Source: Gracilaria domingensis | Taxonomy: Eukaryota > Rhodophyta > Florideophyceae > Gracilariales > Gracilariaceae | DNA length: 64,000 nt | Assembly (NCBI GenBank): GCA_022539475.1 | Contig: VCMS01000127.1 | Coordinates: 62,001 to 126,000, forward strand | Direction: 5' to 3' | Shown: positions 12,541 to 24,150 of the stretch, piece after piece | Numbering within the stretch: position 1 is the first letter of the stretch | Layout: every line of letters starts with the position of its first letter | Notes under the pieces: generated by a model | Told to the model about the DNA's origin: nothing | Databases searched by the model: none | Seen by the model: only the letters and a program-made list of their open reading frames with translations | Position numbers and translations under genes: made by a program

Positions 12541-12839
12541 AAAGCGGGCGAAAAGCGGCGAAAAAAGCAAATTTGAAGCGCGCGCCACGTGCCGTACACG
12601 AGACAGTGACGGCTCGTCGCGGCGCGCTGCGTGACGCGCGCGCGCGGAAAAAAGCTGCGCGCAAGCGGCTCAGACGCGATCTGCGCGCGCCGCATGCAGC
12701 ACAATCCCGCGCACATAAATCGCGCCGCGCGCGCCGCCGCCGCCGCCGCCGCGTACGCACCACCGCACCTCCGCCTCGCGTCGTGCGCCGCCGCCGCCGC
12801 CGCCGCCGCCTTTTCGCTCCGCCGCCGCCCGTTTTCCTT

Positions 12840-13085
12840 CCACCTCGCCCGCTCGCCCGCTCGCCCGCCGCCCCCCCGCCCCCTCCACCGCACCCACGCA
12901 CTAACCAACGCTCGCCTCCGCCTCCGCCTCCGCCTCTCCTCTCTCACCCCCCTCCCCCCCCCCCCCCCCCCCCCCCTCCTCTCCTTCTCTCCCCCTCCCC
13001 CCCCTCCCTCCCCTCCCTCCCCCCCCCCTCCCCCCTTGCCGCCCTCGGTTGGACGCACAACGCGCTTGCCTTGTTTCTCGACAGC
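12840..13085 (+). promoter_or_regulatory. C-rich pyrimidine tract in probable 5' leader of MYB gene 1
   Basis: Almost purely C and T on the coding strand from about 12840 to 13060, including a (CCGCCT)n hexamer stretch near 12910-12940 and 23 consecutive C at 12954-12976. It ends just before the ATG at 13093. A TATA-like CATAAATC lies at about 12713. Comparable tracts precede many other genes in this window. Confidence 0.55.
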
Positions 13086-13092
13086 TAAAGGA

Positions 13093-13220
13093 ATGTCTGC
13101 GCACAAGCTAGCAAGCGTGTGCACTACCTCCGGCGCCGCCCTGTTCGACTCGTCGTGCGTGCTCGCCCCGCTGGCCTCCGCGCCCGTTCGCTTCGGCGCA
13201 CTCAACGTGCGGTCGGTGGG

Positions 13221-13264
<44 letters not shown>

Positions 13265-13756
13265 CGCTGACACTGAGCGACTGCAGCGAGCTGTCGTCGG
13301 CCACCTCGCGCGACGACAACCGCCTGGCGCCCATGAACGCCGCGCTGCCCGCGCCCGCGCCCACGGCCGCCACCACGGCCACCACCACCAGCGCCACCAC
13401 GGCCACCGCCAGCAGCAGCAGGCGGTACGACATGAAGCGGCGGACGCGCGCCGCCGCCGGCGCCGCCGGCGCCGCGGGCAAGGCGCGGCGCGCCGCCGGC
13501 GCGGAAGGCCGCGCCGCCGGCGGCAAGAAGGTGCGCAGCAGCAAGAGCAACATCCCGGGCGAGAGCCGGTACTGGACGCCGTCCGAGCACAAGCTGTTCA
13601 TCGAGGCGCTGTGGAAGTTTGGCCCCAAGAACCTCAAGGCCATCTCGGCGTACGTCGGCACGCGCAACATGATCCAGTGCCGCACGCACGAGCAAAAGTG
13701 CTTCATGCGGCTCATGCGCGAGGCGCAGCGCGAGAACGTCGCGCGCGGCGGCGGCT

Positions 13757-13817
<61 letters not shown>

Positions 13818-13947
13818 GGGCGCGCGCGCCGGCGCGGACGAGAAGCGCCGCCGCCTCAAGGCCGCCAAGGACGTGTACTCGGTGTCGCCGCAGTGCGGGC
13901 TGCTGCTGCTGTGCGCGGTGAGCGAGGAGATGTCGCGAAGCGCGTAG
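13093..13947 (+). CDS. Single-repeat MYB (SHAQKYF-like) transcription factor, copy 1
   Basis: A 284-residue intronless protein. One MYB/SANT repeat spans about residues 158-210: SRYWTPSEHKLFIEAL, then GPKNLKAISAYVGTRN, then CRTHEQKCFMRLM. The last part corresponds to the SHAQKYF signature of plant and algal 1R-MYBs, but here reads THEQKCF, with Tyr replaced by Cys. The N-terminal 157 residues are alanine/threonine-rich and contain an Ala run; the region after the MYB repeat holds a long Gly run from (GGC)n at 13768-13816. The C-terminus YSVSPQCGLLLLCAV is shared with the next gene. It is probably a nuclear DNA-binding regulator; proteins of this class bind GATA/I-box-like sites, and a GATAAG lies upstream at 12242. 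Target genes are unknown. Confidence 0.85.
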
Positions 13948-14233: not shown

Positions 14234-14281
14234 CACGTGCGCGACCAATTTGACAGCTGCTTTTGACGCCGCTTTATAAAA
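14234..14281 (+). promoter_or_regulatory. Promoter of MYB gene 2: G-box, CCAAT box, TATA box
   Basis: CACGTG at 14234-14239, CCAAT at 14245-14249 and TTTATAAAA at 14273-14281 lie in that order. They are followed by a C-rich pyrimidine leader (14285-14459) directly before the ATG at 14460. This is the clearest core promoter in the window. Confidence 0.75.
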
Positions 14282-14284
14282 GCC

Positions 14285-14459
14285 GTACCCTCCACCGCGC
14301 CGCCGCCCGCTCAGCTCCCGCCCCTTCTTAACCTCAGCTCCCCCTTCCCCCCCCCCCGCCTCCCCCCACCTCCCACCACATCTCCCCACCCACCCCCCAC
14401 CGCGCACCACCGCCCTCCCCTCCCCCACCCACTTAACCCCCAACCTCCCCCCACCCCCC
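14285..14459 (+). promoter_or_regulatory. C-rich pyrimidine 5' leader of MYB gene 2
   Basis: About 170 nt made almost only of C with some T and A on the coding strand, lying between the TATA box and the start codon. Its position indicates 5' untranslated RNA rather than promoter DNA. Confidence 0.6.
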
Positions 14460-15371
14460 ATGCAGCCCGCGCTCTCCTCCCCCGCGCTCTCCTCGCACAC
14501 CATGTCGTCGTGCGCCAAGGACGCCGCCGCCGTCGATAGCTGCGCGCGCGCAGTCGTCGATGCCGACCAATACCGCGCCGTCGTGTCGCGCCTCGACGCG
14601 CAGACGCAGCTTACCGACCGTCTGCAGCGCCAGCTGGCCGACGCCCACAAGCGCGTCGAACACCTGCAACACCAACTGCACGCCCTCCACTCTAACACCA
14701 ACACCAACACCAACACCAACACCAATACCAACACCAACACCACCACCGTCACCTCCCACGCCGCCACGCCGCCGTCGTCCGACGCCGTGCACCGCGCGCA
14801 GCTGCAGCAGCCCGCGCAGCCGCCATCGCACGCGCCACAACGGCCGCCGCCGCCGCACGCAAGACGGCACGACAAGGAGGCGCTGTCGCTGTGCAGCGAC
14901 GTGTCTGCGCGCGGCGACGACGCCAAGACGTCGTCCACGTCCGCCAAGAAGAGCTCCACGCGCCGCAGGATCTGCAAGAAGCAACGGAACGGCGCGGCGG
15001 CGCACAAGGGCGTCAAGATAGCCGGCCAGAGCCGCTACTGGACCGCCGACGAGCACAAGCTCTTTCTGGAGGCGCTCACGCTGTACGGCTACAAGAACCT
15101 GCGCTCCATCTCGGCGCACGTGGGCACGCGCAACATGACGCAGGTGCGCACGCACAGCCAAAAGTACTTTATGCGCCTCATGCGCGAGGCCAAGCGCCAG
15201 AACCCGAGCATGAGCGACGAGCCGTCGCCGGTGCGCGCCGGCGGCGCCGCCGCCGCCGCCGCCGCCGCGCCCGCCAACGGCAAGTCAATCAACGACGACA
15301 AGTATTCGGTGCCGAATACGTGCGGCATGACGCTGCTGTGTCTGGTGGGTCAGGACACGCTGCCCACATGA
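14460..15371 (+). CDS. Single-repeat MYB (SHAQKYF-like) transcription factor, copy 2
   Basis: A 303-residue intronless protein; an ATG at 14502 (MSSCAKD) is an alternative start. A predicted coiled coil lies near residues 45-80. It is followed by an Asn-Thr run encoded by (AACACC)n at 14694-14744 and a basic region. The MYB repeat is at about 190-243: SRYWTADEHKLFLEAL, YGYKNLRSISAHVGTRN, VRTHSQKYFMRLM. The signature THSQKYF is closer to canonical SHAQKYF than that of copy 1. The C-terminus KYSVPNTCGMTLLCLV matches the corresponding motif in copy 1. The two genes are in tandem, 512 bp apart, and clearly arose by duplication; outside the MYB repeat, a short following stretch and the C-terminal motif, they share only low-complexity sequence. 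Confidence 0.88.
   Translation: MQPALSSPALSSHTMSSCAKDAAAVDSCARAVVDADQYRAVVSRLDAQTQLTDRLQRQLADAHKRVEHLQHQLHALHSNTNTNTNTNTNTNTNTTTVTSHAATPPSSDAVHRAQLQQPAQPPSHAPQRPPPPHARRHDKEALSLCSDVSARGDDAKTSSTSAKKSSTRRRICKKQRNGAAAHKGVKIAGQSRYWTADEHKLFLEALTLYGYKNLRSISAHVGTRNMTQVRTHSQKYFMRLMREAKRQNPSMSDEPSPVRAGGAAAAAAAAPANGKSINDDKYSVPNTCGMTLLCLVGQDTLPT
14694..14744 (+). repeat. (AACACC)n hexamer repeat inside MYB 2
   Basis: In-frame hexanucleotide repeat coding for alternating Asn-Thr, with minor interruptions. Its length is a multiple of three, so expansion would not break the frame. Confidence 0.85.
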
Positions 15372-16279: not shown

Positions 16280-19200
16280 TCACCGGTAGTACGAGTTGCA
16301 TCTCCGCCGCTGCTTCCGCTTTCCCTCGTGATGCAGCTTCTTCCAGTCCTCCGGGATGCTCATCTCGCTTCCAGCCGCCAACACCGGGTGCTCCCTCGCG
16401 TCCTCCTCCTCGTCCGTCAACGTCGCGTCGTACGCCCGCCGAGACACCCGCCGATTCAGTTTGGGGTCCAACGCATTCAGCATCGCCTCCAGCAGTCCAA
16501 CAGACGCCTCCACATACTGTCCCTTGCCCCGCTTGCTAAAGTCCCGTAACACGTAGCCCTCGATGAACTTGGCCCCCGCCAACTTCTGCATGTGGTACAC
16601 AATCGTCGGCTCGTACAGTCCGAACCGCTCAGGCCCTGACGTTAGATGAACCCTATTGTCAGCCTGATGATCCTTGCTCATGTGCTCATTCACCACCTTC
16701 ATCCAAAGCGTAACCACATTCGGACCGCTCCCAATCTCCCTCTGTCCCGTCCACATCGTGTCTTCATCGCTCGCCTTTTCGTTGAAGCCGTCCAGCACAC
16801 TGATGCGGAAAACTGGCCGTGTGCGATCCTCATTACCCATAATTTCACACAGTAGCGCCATCCCAGACACAACTCGAATCGTCCTGAACCCTACAGGGTA
16901 TATCACCTTGTTCTTGCAAAACGCTGACGCACCCTGCACAACTTCCCCCAGGCACAACAGGAACAACCCATCCCCAAGGTCCGCTGGTAGAATAAGAATA
17001 CCATGTTCATCCTTTGGGATCTCGATCAATGTTCGCCGTTCTGTCCGAGGTCTTCCCGACGACGCAGGTGGCGGAGCTGCGCTCTCCGCCCGCTTCCGGC
17101 CCACCTCTCTACTCCTCACCAAGTCCATCAGCGGCCTATCGTCCTCCAGAACGAATTCTTCTTTTGCTTCTGACTTTGCCTTGCCACCACGAAGTGCCCC
17201 ATTGGTAGAATAAGCGCCACCTCCAGAGGCTGTCCTCTCAGAGCCATACTGCGAAGCAGATGCTCCATTCCGTGCGTAGATTTCAAAGTGTGGATCGTTT
17301 GCTCGAGTTCGAAAATACCGTAGCAACGCAAACGCACGTTTTGTCGCTGCCGATGGCTTGGGCATGGCCGGTCGTTTCACAGACTTCAAGTCATTCGCCG
17401 CTTTCCGTTGCCAGCTTTTCATCGACGACGCAAAAGTCAGGTCAGGGTCATTGCACATGTTGTCCCAGCCGTTGAACCCATAGCGGTCCACTCCAATTAG
17501 AAGAGATCGGTCATCGGGGCCCTTCCACCACGATGGCAGGTCCCTTGTCTTCTTGAACCCCCTCAAGATAGACTTCAGTCTGGGATGCACGAGTACCTCG
17601 CCACGAAGCGCCCGAAAGAATTCCAGGCGCTCAATGAGTTTTTCGGCACGTTCGGTTGTGAGCGTGCTGAAAACTGTTGCAGAGTTCTTCCTCTGGTTCA
17701 GGTTATCCACCCTTTCAAAGTCCTCGTCTTCCTTCGCAGCAGATAGATCGTTACTTAGATGCGCTTCTGATAACAGCTCAACGTAGGCATCATCCAGCGT
17801 CTCAGGATACTTGGCTTCAAAGCCTTGCACTTTGGAATGAAACCAAGACCAATCAACGGATTTTCCATCTTCTTTGTACACGACGCCGCAATTAGAGAGT
17901 GCGCGTTCAAACTCCAGCGCTTCTTTCTTCGAAAATGGTTGCGACTTCCTAATCCGTCTTTCAGCCTTTCTCCTGGTTTTCTCCGCCTCCTTCTCAGCTT
18001 TCCGCGCTGCAAGGTCATCTTTCCGCTGCTTTGCTTTGGACTCAGCCATCTGCTTCTTCTTTAGCTCTCTCATGTCCTTGTCAAATTCCTTGGCACATGA
18101 GTTGATTGTAGATTTGAGACGCTTCATGAGAGCCTCGCTGTTCGGAAACGGAACGAGCCCATCATCATTGGCCATTGATTTGGCCGCGGCTGCGGCGTCT
18201 TCCGGATTATTAAACCCGTATTGGTTCCCAATGCGTGGGCCTCGTTTCGGCACAAAGCGCTTGCGCTTCGTTTTCTCCGTGCCAGAGGCGGACTCGTCCT
18301 TCACACTGCCCTTGGCTCCATGACTTCCATTTTCATGAGTGTTGAGACTGCTCTGCACGGCGGCGGTGACGGCCTCAATAGGATTTGGATCTAACGGCGA
18401 CATGTCCGAATCGTCCTGCGAATGCGGTGTGTTCACAAATGATTGCTGGGCACTGGCTGAACCAGCCGAAGGACCAGTTAGTGGGAGCTGGGCGTTGTCT
18501 TTTTGTGCGCTCGACGGTTCAGTATGTCCAAGTTTGGGTCGTTTCTTCGGGTTGTGCAACGGGAACTCATGCATATCCTCGTCGTCCACGTCTTCATTCA
18601 TACTCAGGCCGTGACGGTCGTCCTCGTCCTTGTCCGGATCGTGGTCGTTCTCGTCGTCGTCGTCGTCGTCATCCATGTCCATGTGCGCGGCATCAGTATT
18701 GGCACTCGGCGCAAGACTCTCGCTCTTGACCGGAGTCACAGTCTTCTTGGTAGACATGGCAGGCGCGTAGCGGTTTAAAAAACCGAGTTCAGGGTCTTGG
18801 CGAATAGCTTCAATTGCACCGTACCCATGCTTGTACGAGCCAATGATGAAGTCGGCATCATCATTGGAGGTCCAGTACAAAGCCGGTGGGGGGGTGGCCA
18901 CACGCAACTCACCCGCACGCAAACGCTGTAACGACGAATGGTCATGAACATCTTGCAGGCGACTCAAGAGTCTGAGTTTCCTCGCCCAGCGAACAAACTT
19001 TCTTTTCTCCTTGGGCTCGATCTGCGTCCTGGCGTGTTCTAAAAGCTGATTGATCTCATGCTCAACGTCATGCTCGCGGTTGTCGAAGAGTTGGACGGGA
19101 TGGCGTCGAAGAATGTCCATGAGCGCTTTTTGTTCTACGCCCGGACGGGCGTGAAGATAGCACCTCGCAATAAAGGTTCTCGCAACCGGAACCAGCTCCT

Positions 19201-19816
19201 CTGGCTGGCGTTCCGCCAAGCGACTGTTGGTCTCAGAAAGAATCTTCTCCCAGCGTCCGTAGCCGTAGCGCATCATGAGCGTGCGCAGCGAGCTATGCTC
19301 CGATTTAATCCATTCCCTCCGCTTTCGCTTCTTGGGCGGCGACACGGGCGACGGGGACTCGCAGGCGGGCGGCGCATCAGCGGACTGCGGCTGTTGCTCA
19401 AGCAGTCGAAACACGAGTCGCGAGTCTGCAATTTTAATTGCAGCGCCGTCGGGAAGCGGATGCGGCTCCTTGTCAGTGATGCGCAACTCCCTGGCGCGCG
19501 GCGCGGGGGTGAGCAGCACCGGGTTGCGGCCGAGACAGGTGAGGGTGAAAGAACGCGACGCGCGGTCATAGTTGATGCGCGCATGCAGGCGGCTGAGCTT
19601 GGTGGAGAGGCCGAGACCGAGGTGAACGGCCGGGTACAGCGGCTTGAGCGGGTGGTCTGGCGCGGCGGGGTCGGAGCGGCCCAGCAGCAGCTGCGACGCG
19701 GGCACGGGGTGGTGCACTGGGACGGAGCGCGACGCGTAGTGCACGAAGCCGTCGAGGGTGGCGAGGGGCTGCGGCGCGGCGGAGCTGCGCTGGGGCGGGT
19801 GGTGGTTCTCGTGCAT
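16280..19816 (-). CDS. Large chromatin-type protein: FHA domain, CHD-like SANT modules, FYRN-FYRC
   Basis: An intronless frame; I take the ATG at 19816, giving 1178 residues. The frame stays open to an ATG at 20272, but that extension is low-complexity (poly-Gln, Arg-Leu repeats) and lies downstream of a TATA-like CTTAAAA at 20118-20125, so it is more likely 5' leader. Domains in order: an FHA-like fold at about 20-150 (LLLGRSD near 45, LSRLHARINYD near 75); a MYB/SANT-like segment near 175-215 (EHSSLRTLMMRYGYGRWEKI); LYWTSNDDADFIIGSYKHGY near 310; an acidic then basic/coiled-coil linker; LPSWWKGPDDRSLLIGVDRY near 760, both similar to the WWxxxxDxxLLIGxxxxGY module of CHD6-9/Kismet; and FYRN (YPVGFRTIRV near 972) with FYRC (FRISVLDGF near 1003, FGLYEPTIVYHMQKL near 1065). 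No helicase motifs are present. A nuclear, histone- or DNA-associated role is inferred. Confidence 0.8.
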   Translation of the reverse strand: MHENHHPPQRSSAAPQPLATLDGFVHYASRSVPVHHPVPASQLLLGRSDPAAPDHPLKPLYPAVHLGLGLSTKLSRLHARINYDRASRSFTLTCLGRNPVLLTPAPRARELRITDKEPHPLPDGAAIKIADSRLVFRLLEQQPQSADAPPACESPSPVSPPKKRKRREWIKSEHSSLRTLMMRYGYGRWEKILSETNSRLAERQPEELVPVARTFIARCYLHARPGVEQKALMDILRRHPVQLFDNREHDVEHEINQLLEHARTQIEPKEKRKFVRWARKLRLLSRLQDVHDHSSLQRLRAGELRVATPPPALYWTSNDDADFIIGSYKHGYGAIEAIRQDPELGFLNRYAPAMSTKKTVTPVKSESLAPSANTDAAHMDMDDDDDDDENDHDPDKDEDDRHGLSMNEDVDDEDMHEFPLHNPKKRPKLGHTEPSSAQKDNAQLPLTGPSAGSASAQQSFVNTPHSQDDSDMSPLDPNPIEAVTAAVQSSLNTHENGSHGAKGSVKDESASGTEKTKRKRFVPKRGPRIGNQYGFNNPEDAAAAAKSMANDDGLVPFPNSEALMKRLKSTINSCAKEFDKDMRELKKKQMAESKAKQRKDDLAARKAEKEAEKTRRKAERRIRKSQPFSKKEALEFERALSNCGVVYKEDGKSVDWSWFHSKVQGFEAKYPETLDDAYVELLSEAHLSNDLSAAKEDEDFERVDNLNQRKNSATVFSTLTTERAEKLIERLEFFRALRGEVLVHPRLKSILRGFKKTRDLPSWWKGPDDRSLLIGVDRYGFNGWDNMCNDPDLTFASSMKSWQRKAANDLKSVKRPAMPKPSAATKRAFALLRYFRTRANDPHFEIYARNGASASQYGSERTASGGGAYSTNGALRGGKAKSEAKEEFVLEDDRPLMDLVRSREVGRKRAESAAPPPASSGRPRTERRTLIEIPKDEHGILILPADLGDGLFLLCLGEVVQGASAFCKNKVIYPVGFRTIRVVSGMALLCEIMGNEDRTRPVFRISVLDGFNEKASDEDTMWTGQREIGSGPNVVTLWMKVVNEHMSKDHQADNRVHLTSGPERFGLYEPTIVYHMQKLAGAKFIEGYVLRDFSKRGKGQYVEASVGLLEAMLNALDPKLNRRVSRRAYDATLTDEEEDAREHPVLAAGSEMSIPEDWKKLHHEGKRKQRRRCNSYYR

Positions 19817-20125: not shown

Positions 20126-20274
20126 CGCATGATTAATGAAGAAAAGGGGAGGCGGCGTCGGGCGGCGACAGTTGAGTGGGCTAGCGGCGCGCAGCGGCGC
20201 GGGCGTGCTGCGCTGGGGCGGGCGATACACAACGGGCGTGCGTGTGCGTGTGCGTGCGCGGCGGCGCGGCATGG

Positions 20275-20416: not shown

Positions 20417-21751
20417 TTACGGATTTGTCGCGCGCGGCGCGGCGCAGCGCGGCGGCGCGCCCAGCGCGGCGACGTTGCCGGCGCGGCTCAGCACCAGCTG
20501 CACGTCGGCCAGCGTGCGCGTGGCGAAGCCCGCCTCGCAGTAGCTGAGGTAGTAGCGCCACATGCGCGCGAAGCGCGCGTCGAAGCCCGCCGCCGCCAGC
20601 GCGCCCTCCTTGGCGCTGCGCTCGAAGCGCGCGCGCCACTCGCGCAGCGTCGGCGCGTAGTGCGCGCCGATGTTCTCCACGTGCTCCACGCTGAGCGCCG
20701 CGCGCGCCGCCGCCGACACCACCGCCTCCACGCTGGGGCACACCCCGCCGGGGAAGATGTACTTCTGGATGAAGTCCGCCGACGAGCGGTACGCGTCGTA
20801 CCGCTCCTCCGGCGTCGCGATCACCTGGATCACCCACAGCGCGTCCGGCGTCATGGCCGCCGACACGTCGCGGAAGAACGCGCGCAGGAACTCGTGCCCC
20901 ACCGCCTCCAGCATCTCGATCGACACCATGCGGTCGAACTTGACGCCCAGCGAGCGCACGTGGCGGTAGTCCAGCTTGAGGAACTGCACGCGCTCGTGCA
21001 CGCCCGCGTCGCGCGCGCGCTGCCTCGCCAGCTGCAGCTGCTGCTCGGACAGCGTCACCCCCGTGACGCGGCAGCCCGTGCGCTGCGCCGCGCGGATGGC
21101 AAACTCGCCCCAGCCGCAGCCCACCTCCAGCACGTGGCAGCTGCGGTCGACGCGCGCCTTGTCGATGATGGCGTCCAGCTTGCGCCACTGCGCCGCGTCC
21201 AGGTCGTCGCCGTCGCCAAACGTGGCGCACGAGTAGGTCCAACTCTGCCCGAGGAAGCACGCGAACAGCTGGTTGGACAAGTCGTAGTGCGCCGCGATGT
21301 TTCGCGACGAGCCGCGAAGCGTGTTGCTGCTCAGCAGGTGCATGGCGCGGTTGAACGCGCCGCCGAGCTTGGACACGGTCAGCTGCGCGGCGTTGAGGCT
21401 GGCGCCGTCTCGATTGAGGATGAGCAGCTTGAACAGCTCCAGCAGCTCATCGCCGCTGGCGTGAATGTCCGCGGCCATGTACGCCTCGGCCAGGCCGATG
21501 TCGGCGGCGGTGGCGACGCGGAAGAAAAATTGGGAAGCGTTGTGCACGCGAATGCATACCACGGGGCGCCTCTCGCGTCGCGCGAGCGCCTGCGGCTCAC
21601 CAAAGTGCAGGCTTTCGTCGGGCGACTCGAGGGTGAGATGGCCCTTGCGGATGCCCCTGGACAAAAAGTCGATGACAAAATAGCGGAGCAAGGCGTCGGC
21701 GGCGCGCAGAAGCGCCGCGTGCAGCCTCTCGCCGAGCGAGCTGTTCCTCAT
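20417..21751 (-). CDS. Cyclopropane-fatty-acyl-phospholipid synthase-like SAM methyltransferase
   Basis: 444 residues from the ATG at 21751, which sits in a strong GCCGCCACCATGA context right after a C-rich tract. An upstream in-frame ATG at 21877 would add 42 low-complexity residues. The N-terminal domain (to about 130) has the usual lead-in RGHLTL-type strand and AEAYMAADIHASGDELLELF. The catalytic part begins with IAAHYDLSNQLFACFLG and SWTYSCATF, then SAM motif I VLEVGCGWGEFAI near 235, VTLSEQQLQLAR, and VSIEMLEAVGHEF near 305, all standard for the CFA synthase family. The C-terminus includes MWRYYLSYCEAGF. It would transfer a methylene or methyl group from SAM to unsaturated acyl chains of membrane lipids. 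The protein lacks the oxidase domain fused to the plant enzymes and is closer to the bacterial layout. No organelle signal is clear. Confidence 0.9.
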   Translation of the reverse strand: MRNSSLGERLHAALLRAADALLRYFVIDFLSRGIRKGHLTLESPDESLHFGEPQALARRERRPVVCIRVHNASQFFFRVATAADIGLAEAYMAADIHASGDELLELFKLLILNRDGASLNAAQLTVSKLGGAFNRAMHLLSSNTLRGSSRNIAAHYDLSNQLFACFLGQSWTYSCATFGDGDDLDAAQWRKLDAIIDKARVDRSCHVLEVGCGWGEFAIRAAQRTGCRVTGVTLSEQQLQLARQRARDAGVHERVQFLKLDYRHVRSLGVKFDRMVSIEMLEAVGHEFLRAFFRDVSAAMTPDALWVIQVIATPEERYDAYRSSADFIQKYIFPGGVCPSVEAVVSAAARAALSVEHVENIGAHYAPTLREWRARFERSAKEGALAAAGFDARFARMWRYYLSYCEAGFATRTLADVQLVLSRAGNVAALGAPPRCAAPRATNP

Positions 21752-23154
21752 GGTGGCGGCGAGCTGCGGCGCCGGGGAGGGGGGGGTAGGGGCGGGGGGG
21801 GGGGATGCGCACACGGCGAAGGAGGAGACGCGATACGCTGCACAGCCGCCCCCCATTGGCGCGGCTGCGGCGGCCATAAGCCACCATCACCGGCAGTGAT
21901 GTGCTCCCCGGAGCCAGTGCGGCGATGCATAGCGCGATGAGCTCCCGCGCGCGCGCCCATTGGTCCACGTGAACACTCTGCACATGTGCCATTCGCCTTC
22001 CCGCCAACAGAGCGCGCCCAACCGCCTCCACCACATCGTTGAACTGAACCGCAACATGCGCGCGCTCACGTGCGCCGTAAGGCGAGCCTCCTTACAGCAC
22101 ACGTAGTGGTGCGCTGGACACGTTGGCGCTTTTCCGTAACCAGGGCTACAGTACGCGGCCGCATGTCGCCGCCTCTGCGATTCGCTGCGACACTCTCTGT
22201 CTGCAAAACAGAATAAAACTTGAGCGTACCCTTGTACATAAAATGGCTCTCATGAATCATTGCCACCAAACAAGAATGACGCATCAATAGCAGTGCTACC
22301 AAGGGTACCTTCGTAAATGCTTTTGCTTTTCACATAAACAGCGCCAAGCGGGAGCGCGCCGCCACAAGCAAACCAAGTGGCACTACAGCACTAATTCAAG
22401 GACGCCAACCGAGTGGAAGCCAGCTCCCCTACTACAGATAATTCCCCCACCGCCGCTCGCCGCCATGCAGCCGCCCAACTCCCGATCCGCCGCGGGGCAC
22501 CGGAAGCAGACGCGTCACCGCGCGCCGCCAGCCCACCAGTGCCCGCGCACGGCGCGCTGTGGCAGACCACACCAAGCGGCGCGCATGTTGAACACCACAA
22601 CCCTAGCCCCAACTTTTGCCCGCGCGGCCGCGCCCACGCCAGCTGTAAGCCGCCGCTTACTGCGCGAGTCTCTCACGCACGCGCGCGCAGACACACGCGT
22701 GCAGCTCGCGAGCGCAGCCTTTTCACTCAAAGCGCGACAGCGCGGCAGCGGCGAGGCGGCCCGTCGACAGTCGTTTCGCTTACGTCCGTGTGCGCTATCA
22801 ACGGCCCCTTCACGCTCGCCGCGCCCGTTTCCGACCGCTTCGCCGCGTCCGTTTCCGCCGTTCGACACGGCGTTGCGTCTCCTTCGGCGCCGCGCACCCG
22901 TCCCTGCTCCTAGGTCGCCGCCAAATGTCTCGCGTGCTGTGTTACGCGCGGGGACACCGCGCCGCAGCCGTGTCTTCGCGCCTTTGATTGTCAGTCGCGC
23001 CGACATGCCACCCCGCACACCTGATGGGGCGCATCACCGCCGCCGCACCGAGCCATCGCGCCACAAGCAACATCACTTGAACGAAAAACAAACAAGTGTC
23101 AGAACGATCGTTTTTACTAACGAACAGCAAGTTAAGCGTGGAAACTTCCACAAA
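21752..23154. other. 1.4 kb intergenic region
   Basis: On the minus strand just upstream of the methyltransferase start lie a C-rich tract (about 21778-21806), a CCAAT at 21851-21857, and a CCAAT with adjacent CACGTG near 21957-21970. Frames at 22413-22913 (+) and 22515-23018 (-) overlap each other and look compositional. I see no further gene. The TADA1 gene ends at 23155 on the minus strand. Confidence 0.4.
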
Positions 23155-24150
23155 TCAAAGCAGCATCGACAGCCGCTCCAAATCCACCGCCCGTTCCTCA
23201 CCAAGTAAGCTAGGGTTCCTCTTGGCCGGTTCCCTCAAGTCCAACGCTCTCACCGGTCCGCACTGCAAGTTATCGCACGGAATCATGGAGCTCCTCGCTA
23301 TTCGATGCCGCACCGCCAGCTGCAACAGCAGCTTGACTCTCATCTCAATCGCATGCACCATGGCACCGACAGCGTCATCATGCATTTCCGCCATACCGGC
23401 CTGCTCCACCGCAATCCTCTTCATCCGATGTCTTAGCTTGATGAACAGTTCGTAGTCGATACCACAGCCCGGCTCAACAGGTTGGAACGGCATGTCGTAC
23501 GAGCCCAGCTCGGTGGAAGGAACCAAAGCGCCCGCCCTTGACGCGGCGTTGCGCGCAGCCGCCAACGCGCTTGGCGACGGCGGTGGAAGACTTGGAGTCT
23601 TCTCTGGCGGTTTTGGCCGCTTTGGTTTTGGCGAACGCTTTTCCGGAAGCTCCAGTTTGGGTTTGACCAGCTTGGGTTTGTCGGCGTCGGAGGGCGGTTT
23701 CTTTGGTTGCACAGGACGAAGCTTTTGACGCTTTGCATTCTGCACGCTTGTGTCGTCGCTGGGTGTGCCCTTGACGGTGCTGGAATCCAGTTCATCGTGC
23801 GGTCGCTTGATTCCAAGCTTTGGAGCGACCGGCTTTTTGAGCGGGCCGTTTGGAAGTTTGGAGGGCTGTCTGCTGGAAGGTGCAGGCTTTTTGAAAGGAA
23901 TAAGGAGTGGAAGGTCGCGCAGCCCATCACGCTTCTGCTGTGCGCGGAACAAGATTTCTTGGATGATGGAGTTATGTACATGAATCTTGTCATCTGGCAA
24001 CAGTTTGGTCATCTGATCCTCGTATTGGATCTTGGTCATGCGGGCGCTGAGAAAGGAGCGCAGAACGTCGACATACCGCGTGCATATTTGGGGAGACAGA
24101 CCGGCGGATATGAGGCGCTTGCGAACGACATCTGATTTGCCGGCTGCCAT
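23155..24150 (-). CDS. SAGA complex subunit Ada1/TADA1-like
   Basis: 331 residues, intronless, starting at MAAGKSDVVRKRL. The N-terminal 85 residues fit the SAGA-Tad1 domain: ARMTKIQYEDQMTKLL, then HVHNSIIQEILFRAQQKRDG. The middle (about 95-225) is a basic, proline- and lysine-rich linker typical of these proteins. The C-terminal part ELFIKLRHRMKRIAVEQAGM, DDAVGAMVHAIEMRVKLLLQLAV (about 235-295) corresponds to the histone-fold region by which Ada1 pairs with Taf12. The role would be structural, in the SAGA histone acetyltransferase co-activator in the nucleus. A minus-strand TCTATATGC near 24244-24252, 95 bp upstream of the ATG, may be the TATA box. Confidence 0.85.
   Translation of the reverse strand: MAAGKSDVVRKRLISAGLSPQICTRYVDVLRSFLSARMTKIQYEDQMTKLLPDDKIHVHNSIIQEILFRAQQKRDGLRDLPLLIPFKKPAPSSRQPSKLPNGPLKKPVAPKLGIKRPHDELDSSTVKGTPSDDTSVQNAKRQKLRPVQPKKPPSDADKPKLVKPKLELPEKRSPKPKRPKPPEKTPSLPPPSPSALAAARNAASRAGALVPSTELGSYDMPFQPVEPGCGIDYELFIKLRHRMKRIAVEQAGMAEMHDDAVGAMVHAIEMRVKLLLQLAVRHRIARSSMIPCDNLQCGPVRALDLREPAKRNPSLLGEERAVDLERLSMLL

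Follow-up and report, generated by a model that had tools for sequence, protein, structure and literature searches.

An FHA–CHD-like–FYR gene in Gracilaria domingensis

We analysed a 64,000-nucleotide stretch of the genome of the red alga Gracilaria domingensis (contig VCMS01000127.1, positions 62,001 to 126,000), hereafter the window, and in it a minus-strand gene whose predicted protein joins an FHA domain, two CHD-like modules (A and B) and an FYRN–FYRC pair in one helicase-free frame. The window lies within contig C127 of a genome of 77.9 Mb in 680 contigs. We performed Pfam scans in two ways, on the protein cut into five pieces and on the protein whole, and we report scores in bits against the curated cut-off. 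The gene and its parts, in protein order, are as follows.

16280..19816, minus strand: coding frame, 1178 amino acids plus TGA; no intron required; the start codon is a choice
19430..19612, minus strand: FHA domain, profile positions 14-66 of 67 (22.7 bits, cut-off 20.7, piece scan)
19220..19321, minus strand: Myb/SANT-like N-terminal half of module A (PF00249, 18.3 bits, under the cut-off of 24.4)
18770..18877, minus strand: SLIDE-type half of module A, HTH_CHD1_Hrp3 (44.3 bits, cut-off 27, piece scan)
18080..18691, minus strand: acidic low-complexity linker between modules A and B; codon preference best in this frame (linkers 1-3)
17780..17995, minus strand: tri-helical HTH_CHD6-9, SANT-like half of module B (29.1 bits, cut-off 27, in pieces; 29.3 bits in the genome profile search)
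17429..17530, minus strand: WW...DxxLLIG...GF unit, SLIDE-type half of module B (PF23588, a second HTH_CHD1_Hrp3, 24.1 bits, under the cut-off of 27)
16871..16990, minus strand: FYRN, profile positions 2-40 of 60 (30.9 bits, cut-off 24, piece scan)
16547..16699, minus strand: FYRC, profile positions 30-81 of 84 (25.1 bits, cut-off 21, piece scan)

An earlier note, made from the letters of this DNA, had described an FHA domain, two CHD-type modules and FYRN/FYRC in one frame with no ATPase, and the piecewise scan bears this out; the Pfam check that it proposed for FHA and FYR placed all three domains above cut-off as pieces. In the whole-protein scan, HTH_CHD1_Hrp3 (58.6 bits), FYRN (27.9, cut-off 24) and FYRC (21.3, cut-off 21) exceeded their cut-offs, and the adjacent FYRN and FYRC domains are thus recovered both ways. 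Pfam listed no SNF2, helicase, chromo, SET, PHD, BRK or JmjC family for the protein, whole or in pieces. Among the hallmarks of a CHD remodeler, we found the C-terminal SANT–SLIDE-type module (in the pieces and by alignment to CHD1) and neither the SNF2 ATPase/helicase C region nor tandem chromodomains. The BRK domains of CHD6-9 (subfamily III) and the SET or JmjC catalytic domain of the MLL/ATX/JmjC FYR enzymes are likewise missing from the window protein. In the FHA domain, R47, S75, H78 and N98 (counting from the Met at 19816) are present by eye, and we take these to be the positions of the phosphothreonine pocket; the GR motif, at 19676-19681, lies upstream of the stretch matched by Pfam.

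The note had compared both modules with CHD6-9; by profile score, module A fits the CHD1/2 model best and module B is of the CHD6-9 type. The DNA-binding region of the genome's own CHD1 can be aligned with module B along some 190 residues, and the SLIDE end of that region with module A; in neither case did any of 500 shuffles reach the score. Among solved structures, module A comes closest to 4b4c, the DNA-binding domain of human CHD1 (phmmer E 4.4e-5, SLIDE half only), and its Myb-like half gave a weak phmmer match to the TRF1 Myb domain (E 0.0035). A profile combining module B with its counterpart in a relative on contig C34, described below, matched yeast Chd1 best among solved structures (E 0.0011, SLIDE half only), with CHD4 lower down (E 0.077). 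We considered and rejected the possibility that the protein is a CHD1 fragment, because module B scores with HTH_CHD6-9, which matched only the window and C34 genes, and near-identical CHD1 copies lie elsewhere in the genome.

Evidence for a single coding frame

The frame runs uninterrupted for 1178 codons from an ATG at 19816 to a TGA at 16280-16282 (19816..16280, minus strand), within a stop-to-stop frame of 1378 amino acids. The start is a choice, given an alternative in-frame ATG farther upstream, at 20272, which is residue 49 in the stop-to-stop frame and sits within low-complexity sequence. When 64-kb sequences of the gene's composition were simulated 20 times with a Markov-1 model, stop-free frames reached at most 414 codons, and on this comparison we rejected a chance open frame. 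The real window is very GC-rich, and long open frames are common in it, including one of 631 amino acids antisense to the neighbouring cyclopropane-fatty-acid synthase type (CMAS) gene. We also trained a codon-preference score on the domain parts of the gene and applied it to four linkers, the FHA domain and the C-terminus; the score was highest in the gene's own frame in all of them, with a thin margin in linker 2 (-0.013 versus -0.035). Because the linkers, too, keep the codon preference of the gene's frame, a fusion of two neighbouring genes is argued against, and we rejected this candidate as well.

Contig C57 holds a decayed copy of the gene's FYR region (locus L007 3862-4269), with 71% identity over 420 bases and internal stops. 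Mismatches between the window gene and this copy at codon positions 1, 2 and 3 number 30/137, 29/135 and 49/135, respectively. This is the pattern expected for a constrained window gene, the decayed copy diluting the signal.

A simpler relative on contig C34

A search of the genome with the HTH_CHD6-9 profile matched at two places, and both candidates were scored: the window gene and a frame of 883 amino acids on contig C34. The C34 protein carries FHA (26.9 bits) and HTH_CHD6-9 (40.1 bits), both over cut-off, and a WW-type unit under cut-off (16.4 bits); neither FYR nor helicase domains were listed for it by Pfam. The FHA–CHD6-9-type combination therefore recurs, again without a helicase. The FHA domain is N-terminal in both proteins, and in C34 an Ile replaces the Asn of the window protein's GRNP loop. 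Identity between the C34 module and module B is 25% across 244 columns, and none of 500 shuffles reached the score of this comparison or that of the two FHA domains. A whole-protein search of the genome with the C34 protein returned itself, an FHA match on contig C89 and a weak CHD1 match. It missed the window gene, just as the window protein missed C34, so that such searches are too blunt to speak against a third family member. Together, the window gene and the simpler C34 gene suggest a small family of chromatin adaptors that lack a motor. Searches of viral contigs with the module-B profile and of prokaryote genomes with the whole frame gave no match, these collections being unsuitable for a eukaryotic nuclear gene and uninformative on its spread.

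The remodeler motors of the genome

Ten of the 12 phycobilisome-family matches in this genome fall on contig C680, which is apparently the plastid genome, as fits a red alga. A search for SNF2 domains returned 46 rows; 24 of the domains were compared with one another, and 12 SNF2 frames plus CHD1 were scanned with Pfam, the frames scanned being those that the retrieved loci showed, with several frames cut at a locus edge. The types recognised comprise two SnAC-bearing SNF2/BRM-type proteins, a third protein resembling these two, INO80 (with DBINO), ISWI (with SLIDE, and HAND under cut-off) and CHD1 (with chromodomains, HTH_CHD1 and a CHD1-like C domain). By our reading of the domains, an HSA-bearing protein that has two further near-identical copies is probably SWR1-type and another is Mot1-like. 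The CHD1 frame has one HTH_CHD1_Hrp3 stretch, which stands behind the chromodomains and the ATPase.

Chromodomain matches adjoin SNF2 matches only at CHD1 and four copies of it, among the 150 of 1207 chromodomain candidates that were scored. Within the SNF2 search and these candidates, no CHD6-9 ATPase was found; an intron-split, weak or unassembled one is possible. This fits the suggestion in the earlier note that the window gene possibly replaces a CHD-type platform in this lineage, though CHD1 is present. A search for DUF1087 (Mi-2 type) gave no match, and no control matched either, so that this is no evidence of absence. An HTH_CHD1 match on contig C2, under cut-off, was set aside as belonging to an ADA2-type protein.

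BRK domains are not exclusive to CHD6-9. A BRK search of the genome gave 16 matches, 14 of them over cut-off, and 2 of 14 prokaryote controls matched, none over cut-off. The best two matches share one helicase-free frame of 754 amino acids on contig C32 (L053 448-2709), for which Pfam lists BRK only. Another protein of the genome, of MLL type, combines SET, PHD-like zinc-binding, FYRN and FYRC domains. For CHD6-9, the presence of BRK domains is stated in an excerpt of PMC13360762.

Chromatin-remodeler genes seem to have been copied repeatedly in this genome. CHD1 (locus L017 2290-6534 on C16; 1415 amino acids) has its four further copies on contigs C18, C38, C201 and C300 (loci L028, L029, L031 and L032), with 93-96% DNA identity across the 3.2-3.6 kb compared and shorter SNF2 frames (355, 448, 328 and 663 amino acids versus 1415). 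The SWR1-type gene likewise has two copies, at about 95% protein identity in its SNF2 domain (L023, L025 and L026). Among the scored chromodomain candidates, many are near-identical and lie in frames of 87 to 131 or of over 1000 amino acids; our guess is that many of these are probably chromodomain-bearing mobile elements.

Three further features of the window were recorded. A CMAS gene (20417-21886, minus strand) lies directly upstream of the FHA–CHD-like–FYR gene on the same strand, and a SAGA-Tad1 family protein (23155-24150, minus strand; 43.2 bits) is encoded nearby. Two plus-strand frames at 12610-13947 and 14280-15371, with one Myb domain each and similar flanks, look by eye like a tandem duplicate.

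A proposed motor-free chromatin adaptor and its alternatives

With belief and doubt about evenly balanced, we favour a reading in which the window protein is a chromatin-binding adaptor with no ATPase of its own, phospho-regulated and docking its partners through FYR, with its binding functions predicted from sequence. The SANT–SLIDE-like modules would hold on to DNA, linker or nucleosomal, but not move it. The FHA domain would dock on a phosphothreonine of a partner or a histone, making binding dependent on kinase signalling, and the FYR fold would dock a further protein, for example a COMPASS-type or transcription-factor partner. The adaptor would then direct a complex to its sites or help to assemble it, and might recruit CHD1 or another remodeler where phospho-marks are present. 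We infer DNA, phosphopeptide and partner binding from CHD1/CHD6, the FHA residues and MLL, respectively. In the excerpted text of a CHD6 study, gel shifts showed binding of DNA and nucleosomes by the second putative SANT–SLIDE module on its own, and recruitment of co-remodelers is proposed for this module (PMC8140133); an excerpt on MLL names FYRN and FYRC among its intramolecular interaction domains (PMC3769346).

Several observations weigh against this adaptor reading. A number of domain scores lie near their cut-offs: FHA clears its cut-off by a small margin as a piece and is absent from the whole-protein Pfam listing, HTH_CHD6-9 drops to 23.2 bits (cut-off 27) in the whole-protein scan, and the first half of module A and the second half of module B are both under cut-off. 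Module A resembles module B only marginally, the score being reached by 1 of 500 shuffles, and its resemblance to the C34 module is not significant (29 of 500); the window and C34 proteins do not find each other at E 1 in whole-protein genome searches. Against the PDB, phmmer with the FHA piece found no FHA, and the FYR region matched TBRG1 (2wzo) as the sole sequence at E 1 or better, and weakly (E 0.041). Structure prediction, a check that the earlier note had proposed, was run on two pieces and gave unusable models, with predicted local distance difference test (pLDDT) values of 36.1 and 33.7.

The protein could instead be a transcription-factor-like or TBRG1/COMPASS-linked regulator, with the CHD-like modules serving as protein-interaction surfaces and having no remodeler link; we regard this as rather unlikely. 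FYR domains occur in MLL-type proteins, including the SET/PHD-like/FYRN/FYRC protein of this genome, and SANT domains are said, in an excerpt of PMC13360762, to join in histone-tail interactions. The CHD6 excerpts (PMC8140133) can be read both ways, in that they tie the second SANT–SLIDE module to co-factor recruitment and report a disease mutation that left DNA binding unchanged, yet the module did bind DNA and nucleosomes. The resemblance of both modules A and B to the CHD1 DNA-binding region also speaks for DNA binding rather than for interaction surfaces.

An improbable alternative is that the protein was once part of a CHD6-9-type remodeler, being its C-terminal half, which in this lineage was split from the ATPase and now acts in trans with a separate motor. 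This is consistent with the confinement of HTH_CHD6-9 in this genome to two helicase-free frames, with the recognised chromodomain ATPases being CHD1 and its near-identical partial copies, and with the second SANT–SLIDE module proposed for CHD6 too (excerpts of PMC8140133). The N-terminal FHA of both the window and C34 proteins, however, is unlike a simple fragment, and a comparison of one genome does not distinguish fission from ancestral absence.

We hold a broader proposal to be just as improbable, namely that the parts found behind the CHD6-9 motor in animals are distributed in this alga among proteins without a motor (two with FHA and CHD6-9-type SANT–SLIDE modules, one of these with FYR, and one with tandem BRK) that form a phospho-gated modular platform lending both DNA grip and partner docking to separate ATPases such as CHD1, either as a pre-fusion state or after a later split. 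It arises from the C32 BRK frame together with the FHA proteins, and the functional link among these is itself a proposal. An artefact, be it a decayed gene or a pair of adjacent genes taken for a single frame, is highly improbable, for although long GC-rich frames are common in the window and a decayed FYR-part copy exists on C57, the stop-free length far exceeds the simulations, codon preference is best in frame across the linkers (by a thin margin in one) and FHA shares one frame with HTH_CHD6-9 in the C34 protein too.

Comparison with known systems

In CHD6-9, the HTH_CHD6-9 domain is followed by a WW...DxxLLIG...G unit. The window protein resembles CHD6-9/Kismet (CHD subfamily III) in having this same succession and in having two SANT–SLIDE-like modules, as a second one is proposed for CHD6 also (excerpts of PMC8140133). 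It is unlike them in that no chromodomain, SNF2, Helicase_C or BRK domain is listed for it and in that it gains FHA and FYR. The resemblance to the CHD1/Chd1 DNA-binding domain lies in the HTH_CHD1_Hrp3 score of module A and in the alignment of module B with the alga's CHD1. That CHD1 has one HTH_CHD1_Hrp3 behind a motor, whereas the window protein has two modules and is motor-free. To our knowledge, CHD-type SANT–SLIDE modules otherwise occur only behind a remodelling motor.

The closely spaced FYRN–FYRC pair is shared with TBRG1 and MLL-type proteins, the match to TBRG1 being weak, and the window protein differs from them in that Pfam lists no SET or PHD; we know of no FYR protein of these types that carries FHA or CHD-type modules. 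Like other FHA proteins, the window protein has an FHA domain over the Pfam cut-off as a piece, with a GR motif, an SxxH motif and, in the next loop, an Asn; unlike them, it joins this domain to CHD-type modules. In the open-licence literature, we found no paper joining FHA with FYRN/FYRC, or FHA with SANT, SLIDE and CHD. The parts are known, and within that literature the FHA–CHD-like–FYR combination seems undescribed. The note knew of no described protein with the combination; it is not entirely unique, in that the C34 relative shares the helicase-free pairing of FHA with HTH_CHD6-9, though not FYR. Domain recombination alone is not a new mechanism. If our reading is true, motor-free modules fused to a phospho-reader-type domain would offer a natural test of what such modules do alone, and two such proteins in a genome in which no CHD6-9 ATPase was found would bear on the origin of the CHD6-9 architecture.

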